This document shows positions 17,212 through 31,814 of a stretch of DNA of 40,069 nt, piece after piece. The translations under genes and the position numbers were made by a program. Every line of letters begins with the position of its first letter. Within the stretch, counting starts at the first letter, position 1. The notes beneath the pieces were generated by a model that was given only the letters and a program-made list of their open reading frames with translations, made no database searches and had not been told where the DNA came from. This DNA comes from Chloroflexota bacterium (GTDB taxonomy: Bacteria; Chloroflexota; Anaerolineae; Anaerolineales; Villigracilaceae): assembly GCA_016191955.1 (NCBI GenBank), contig JACPVC010000152.1, positions 1 through 40,069 on the forward strand, read 5' to 3'.

Positions 17212-17244
17212 AGGTGACAGTCACTTCGAAAGTGACTGTCACCT
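17212..17244. repeat. perfect 15-bp palindromic hairpin
   Basis: AGGTGACAGTCACTT-CGA-AAGTGACTGTCACCT. Confidence 0.85.
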
Positions 17245-17261: not shown

Positions 17262-18320
17262 ATGCCCATTCCACAAACCGGACGCGAAGTTCGCCTGACG
17301 ACTCTTTCCGCCTGCGCGGGTTGAGCGTCCAAACTAAGCGCGGATGCGCTAGCGCAGGTTCTGCGCCCCATCAAAGATATCTTCGACCCAGCCGCATATC
17401 CCGACTTGATGATCGGACTCGAGTCACCGGATGATGCGGCAGTTTGGCGTTTAAGCGACGAGCAAGCCATTGTAGTCACGACGGATTTCTTCACGCCGGT
17501 TGTGGATACTCCCTATGAATACGGCTCGATTGCCGCCGCAAACAGCCTCTCGGATGTGTACGCGATGGGCGGACGACCTTTCCTTGCGTTGAACATCGCG
17601 GCACTGCCGGATAATCTCCCGCCGGAAATCTCCAGCGAAATTTTACGCGGTGGAGCAGAGAAGGCACGCGAGGCGGGCGTGGTCATTGCCGGTGGGCATA
17701 CGGTCAAGGACAAGGAACCCAAGTACGGTTTGGTGGCGATTGGGTTTGTGCATCCGCAGAAGATCATCAGCAAAAGCGGACTTAAAGCAGGCGATGTGCT
17801 TGTGTTGACCAAACGGCTTGGAACAGGCGTTACGACCACGGCGATCAAGCAGGAAAAAGCGGAAGAGGCACATATCAAGGAAGTTATCGAGTGGATGTCG
17901 CGCTTAAATAAAGCGGCGGGCGAACTTGCCGTGGAGTTTGGCGTGCGCGGCGGCACAGACATTACCGGCTTCGGTTTTCTCGGTCATGCCGCAGAGATGG
18001 CAGAAGCATCAGGTGTCGCTTTGCATTTCGAGTTTTCGAAAATCCCCTTCCTGAGCGGCGCACGCGGATATGCAGAACGCGGTATCTTCCCCGGCGGCGC
18101 GTTCGATAACAAAGGTCACTTCGAGAAGGTTGTGAACTTCCCTGTCAATTTTAGCGAGCCTTCGCAGATGCTGTTATTCGACCCGCAGACCAGCGGCGGG
18201 TTGTTGTTCGGCATGGCGCAGGAAAAACTATCCGCGTTCGAAGCGCGCGCGAAGGAATTGAACCAGCCTTATTGGATCGTCGGCGAGGTGCGTGAGGGCA
18301 AAGGCATTGAGGTTCGGTAG
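17262..18320 (+). CDS. selD: selenide, water dikinase with in-frame UGA (putative selenocysteine) at 17322-17324
   Basis: Reading through TGA: [82 protein letters not shown]...; the ORF track only calls 17406-18320. Confidence 0.9.
17325..17355 (+). promoter_or_regulatory. candidate bacterial SECIS hairpin
   Basis: CTaAGCGC-GGAT-GCGCTAG hairpin just 3' of UGA; apical loop 18 nt after UGA. Confidence 0.5.
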
Positions 18321-31354: not shown

Positions 31355-31814
31355 GCTTCAGGTTGGTCGGGCAGTCGCGGTCCTGCGTTGACGGGATCGA
31401 GGAAAGTCCGCACTCCTATAGAGCACGGCGTCGGATAGCACCCGGGGCGGGGAAGTCCGTCATTCGTTGACGGGAAGATCGCCGAAAGGCGTGAACCTGC
31501 CGGAAAAGGGCCACAGAAACAAACAGCCCCGCGTTTCGCGGGGTGATGGTGAAAAGGTGGTGTAAGAGACCACCGGCGCGCACAGTAATGTGTGTGGCCA
31601 GGTAACCCCCGCCGGGAGCAAGGCCAAGCAGGGACGATTTCGTCTGTGGACGATGGGAGGCTGCTCGCCTCCATACGCGCCCATCCCTCTTGTGGGATGA
31701 GTCAGTCCCGGGTAGGCTGCATCGAGCGGCGCGGTGACGCACCGCCCAGAGAGATGACTGCCCAATGGCGCATTGCGTCATGGACAGAATGCGGCTTATA
31801 GACCAGCCTGAAGC
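31355..31814 (+). ncRNA. rnpB: RNase P RNA (bacterial class A)
   Basis: GAGGAAAGTCCGCACTC, ACAGAAA, GGTGAAAAGGTGGTGTAAGAGACCACC, AGGTAACCCCCGCCGGGAGCAAG, GGCTTATAGACCAG; P1 GCTTCAGGTTGGTC/GACCAGCCTGAAGC. Confidence 0.97.

Follow-up and report, generated by a model that had tools for sequence, protein, structure and literature searches.

A predicted selenocysteine codon at the active site of SelD in a Villigracilaceae genome (Chloroflexota)

The selD locus

The window, i.e. the whole stretch of 40,069 nucleotides that was analysed, encodes a selenide, water dikinase (SelD) whose reading frame runs from an ATG to a terminal TAG (18318-18320) and is interrupted only once, by an in-frame TGA (Table 1). 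A first-pass annotation, made from the letters alone, had proposed an open frame leading from this ATG through the TGA into selD, and this frame was confirmed up to the TAG. The predicted protein scores 366.2 bits against the TIGR00476 (selD) model, whose curated cut-off is 125, with a match from residue 11 on, and it is homologous to the E. coli SelD structure (PDB 3u0o) over residues 8-348 (E=1.3e-68). Indeed (i) residue U21 aligns with the Cys of the AGCGCK motif of E. coli SelD (Cys17 in E. coli numbering), (ii) the same residue aligns with the GC of Aquifex SelD (2yye), and (iii) K24 aligns with the conserved Lys of the E. coli protein (K20). The UGA thus lies at the catalytic Cys/Sec position of SelD, as the first-pass annotation had it. 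The protein of the window reads U-A-S-K at this place, with a Ser where E. coli SelD has the second Cys of its Cys-x-Cys motif.

Table 1. Features of the selD locus, in window coordinates
Feature	Position	Strand	Basis
Perfect hairpin directly 5' of the selD start, dispersed repeat	17212..17244	+	Fold z-score -6.9; 20 genome copies
selD, interrupted by a single TGA; selenide, water dikinase of 352 aa, Sec21 predicted	17262..18320	+	TIGR00476, PDB 3u0o
N-terminal coding segment 5' of the UGA, left out when ORFs are called with the plain code	17262..17321	+	Conserved peptide, third-position differences
Predicted selenocysteine UGA codon at the catalytic position (corresponding to Cys17 of E. coli SelD)	17322..17324	+	3u0o/2yye alignment; TGA in family and phylum
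Predicted SECIS hairpin of the bacterial type, GCGCAG-GUU-CUGCGC; its loop G lies 33 nt 3' of the UGA	17352..17366	+	bSECIS criteria, compensatory pairs, synonymous constraint

Read with the plain code, the selD ORF begins at 17406 and loses the catalytic segment, as had been claimed before; the codon at 17406, previously given as an internal Met, is however a TTG, and the in-frame ATG follows at 17409. The corrected gene model restores 48 residues, including the catalytic loop, and the same truncation probably occurs in many related genomes.

The hairpin directly upstream of the gene (GTGACAGTCACTT-CGA-AAGTGACTGTCAC) is present with exact arms in 20 copies in the window's genome and in 0-30 copies in congeners, its variable inner bases still pairing; it is absent from 2.28 Mb of the congener G044, and many relatives have unrelated sequence at its position. 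A regulatory or SECIS-like role was weighed for this hairpin and dropped, since it is a dispersed repeat that many relatives replace with unrelated sequence. It looks like a dispersed intergenic element of the REP or terminator type and probably stands outside Sec decoding. Elsewhere in the window, a class A RNase P RNA is encoded at 31359-31814 (236.8 bits).

Conservation of the TGA codon and of the SECIS element

The TGA is not a peculiarity of one assembly. It recurs in 57/57 full-strength SelD matches, which come from 56 of the 61 Villigracilaceae genomes searched, and across the Chloroflexota exactly one TGA was found in 108 of the 124 SelD matches and none in the other 16, one of which stops short of the active site. 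This is the outcome of the alignment with SelD homologues that the first-pass annotation had recommended. When SelD loci were read individually, the TGA stood at the catalytic position in 126/129; all Chloroflexota loci read have it, including that of a cultured species, Bellilinea caldifistulae (L244), and the three loci with a Cys codon are those of Ruminococcus-type Firmicutes. Predicted Sec use in SelD is therefore near-universal in the family and frequent across the sampled phylum.

These counts bear directly on the possibility that the true codon is TGC or TGT and the gene an ordinary Cys-SelD, altered by a sequencing or assembly error. A single base change would turn the TGA into a Cys codon, and the assembly is a fragmented draft of 370 contigs; however, the same TGA is found in 56 independently assembled genomes of the family and in 108/124 matches of the phylum, and it is accompanied by a conserved SECIS. 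Because the TGA is conserved in this way across family and phylum, such an error is excluded for the family, and for the window's own gene it appears extremely improbable.

The published bSECIS model, as given in a review (PMC13188914), has a loop of 3-9 nt, a stem of 4-16 bp, a G at loop position 1 or 2, a spacing of 16-37 nt from the UGA and an MFE of at most -7.5 kcal/mol. The hairpin 3' of the UGA in the window conforms to this model, with a 6-bp stem, a GUU loop, a spacing of 33 nt and -8.0 kcal/mol, so that the check for a bacterial SECIS suggested in the first-pass annotation came out in its favour, and nearly all family members read also conform. Taken alone, the hairpin of the window is unexceptional: 16% of synonymous shuffles give an equally good fold, and the 51 nt after the UGA, folded by themselves, give z = -1.2 with a competing hairpin. 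Since so many shuffles fold equally well, the case for the element rests on its conservation.

In 104 distinct sequences, 91.5% of the cells of seven stem pairs are paired (666/728), whereas sliding the pairing partner by 1-3 nt lowers this share to 26-60%. The maximum among 1000 column shuffles was 639 paired cells, a comparison that is supportive and is not to be read as a probability, as the shuffles ignore relatedness. Among these sequences, the basal pair swaps between A-U, G-C and G-U, the closing pair swaps between G-C and A-U, and nearly all have a GUN loop. Furthermore, in 60 family-level sequences, synonymous variation at the SECIS codons (+8 to +13) falls to 0.25 of the expected value, lower than anywhere else in the gene (median 0.94); the codon of the GUN loop, with its free third base, lies closer to normal (0.75). 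A SECIS hairpin was sought at the same place in three Cys-SelD homologues and none was found, and in some homologues outside the family the strongest candidate hairpin lies elsewhere nearby. For this predicted element, it is the compensatory changes and the synonymous constraint, and not single-sequence folding, that are decisive, and the SECIS is clear enough to annotate by.

The same data weigh on a second alternative, in which translation truly starts at TTG 17406 or ATG 17409, the product lacks the catalytic segment, and the frame ahead of that start has decayed or goes untranslated. The plain-code ORF does begin at 17406. The peptide encoded before the UGA is nevertheless kept across species, with its differences concentrated at third codon positions; the upstream segment holds the catalytic residue of known SelD; and synonymous change is strongly restricted in the SECIS codons, which lie between the UGA and 17406. 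An internal start is hardly credible against this evidence. By contrast, we consider it about 97% probable that selD in the window encodes a selenoprotein, its UGA being read as Sec via the SECIS; Sec is almost certainly inserted at SelD's own active site through a stop-like TGA.

Selenoproteins of the SelD type are known in bacteria, and a few Chloroflexi selenoproteins have been listed (PMC1794560). The known bacterial Sec-SelD share the catalytic Sec position, a SECIS just 3' of it and a tRNA-Sec/SelB/SelA machinery, and the SECIS of the window does not differ in kind from the bSECISearch model (PMC13188914). The protein of the window differs from the known Sec-SelD in the Ser of U-A-S-K, and in that the predicted Sec codon and the SECIS are conserved throughout a family. 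The arrangement is thus well known and ordinary in kind; what is added is that it holds generally in this family and in most genomes of the phylum that were sampled. No paper on SelD in Anaerolineae was found in the collection of literature searched, which is weak evidence of novelty.

Sec-decoding machinery and proposed mechanism

The genome to which the window belongs encodes a tRNA-Sec with the anticodon TCA (68.5 bits, cut-off 47) and a full-length SelB (339.6 bits, cut-off 242). Both components, whose absence the first-pass annotation had named as evidence against its proposal, are therefore present above cut-off. The complete Sec system that it had expected was recovered in part: SelA was not found in this genome (92.7% complete, 370 contigs), yet 57/61 genomes of the family score above cut-off for it, the four congeners searched among them. 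A comparison of the DNA around selA of the relative G054 with the window's genome revealed no broken selA locus. The natural reading of the missing SelA is a gap in the assembly, presumably between contigs.

In a congener, the DNA 3' of selA (L048:3309-3401) holds another dispersed inverted repeat (CGCGAATTTCACGAATT...AATTCGTGAAATTCGCGG). This repeat yields most of the 73 matches of the query in the window's genome, many of them within ~100 bases of contig ends, and it may be a cause of the fragmented assembly.

We infer both Sec decoding at the UGA and catalysis by SelD from homology and sequence. By homology, SelB carrying Sec-tRNA-Sec would bind the SECIS, and the ribosome would then read the UGA as Sec. 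A Sec-type SelD depends on its own product. The selenophosphate that SelD would make from selenide and ATP would pass through SelA to Sec-tRNA, serving SelD itself, formate dehydrogenase and other Sec proteins. In known SelD, the Sec sits in the N-terminal Se-binding loop (PMC13188914), and the selenol of Sec21 would likewise act in the selenide-binding N-terminal loop.

Uses of selenophosphate and other candidate selenoproteins

The tRNA selenouridine synthase MnmH was sought in the 61 family genomes, and no candidate reaches the cut-off, in agreement with reports of Chloroflexi without the selenouridine trait (PMC1794560; PMC5322559). Because MnmH is absent from the family genomes searched, selenophosphate would not be routed to MnmH-type tRNA selenouridine there and would go mainly to Sec. 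Its uses in the family would be narrowed to selenoproteins, or to some other pathway.

The window's genome encodes a formate dehydrogenase alpha subunit, FdhA (L105:894-3860), with a TGA at the classical site HCARL-U-HSSTVAGL, and a DsbA-like candidate (C44:6563-7126) with one TGA, based on a match of 29% identity. The congener G044 and the family member G018 both encode SelA and Sec-SelD, and searches for a Sec-type FdhA and for MnmH in these two genomes gave no match in either. Furthermore, a coding-potential scan for TGA-interrupted frames, covering 2.28 Mb or ~86% of G044, returned a handful of coding frames, several with the TGA at redox motifs. In brief, the frames recovered include: SelD; two rhodanese-like frames (ITYCT-U) at L146:8989-9474 and L193:8716-9240 (minus strand), where each TGA is followed, 21 nt on, by the same 19-nt hairpin (GAGCGCCCGTGCGGCGTTC); and two DsbA-like frames with an active-site TGA (U-PWCY) at L164:16679-17359 and L194:7602-8228. 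The idea that SelD is the only selenoprotein of G044 was rejected in view of the four other TGA-containing redox candidates. One further candidate of the congener, C2:826660 (VIC-TGA-KEAAM), was discarded as a normal termination codon ahead of the following gene, since it is without a SECIS and an ATG stands a few codons on.

A general reassignment of UGA in the lineage (e.g. to Trp or Gly), under which the TGA of selD would not be Sec, found nothing in its favour and has next to no chance of being right, as TGA is the terminal stop of 6/34 genes in the window, TGA-interrupted frames are few in the scanned part of G044, and tRNA-Sec and SelB are encoded in the window's genome.

Rhodanese-like homologues with one TGA are encoded in many family genomes. 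The DsbA-like TGA is present in 3/4 other close relatives, and the relative G058 is without it; predicted Sec forms of the DsbA-like protein and forms without TGA thus coexist in the family. Together with SelD, the candidate Sec proteins (FdhA, DsbA-like, rhodanese-like) show, as far as their sequences tell, that the Sec trait is in use. One tentative proposal, which we hold to be possible but somewhat short of an even chance, is that the Sec trait of Anaerolineales is kept by a self-requiring SelD and by thiol-redox clients (DsbA- and rhodanese-like), and not by FdhA or tRNA selenouridine. Since related '(seleno)protein' models exist in NCBIfam (rhodanese; the Rcas_1661 thioredoxin-like lipoprotein family), the rhodanese-like and DsbA-like candidates are of known kinds.
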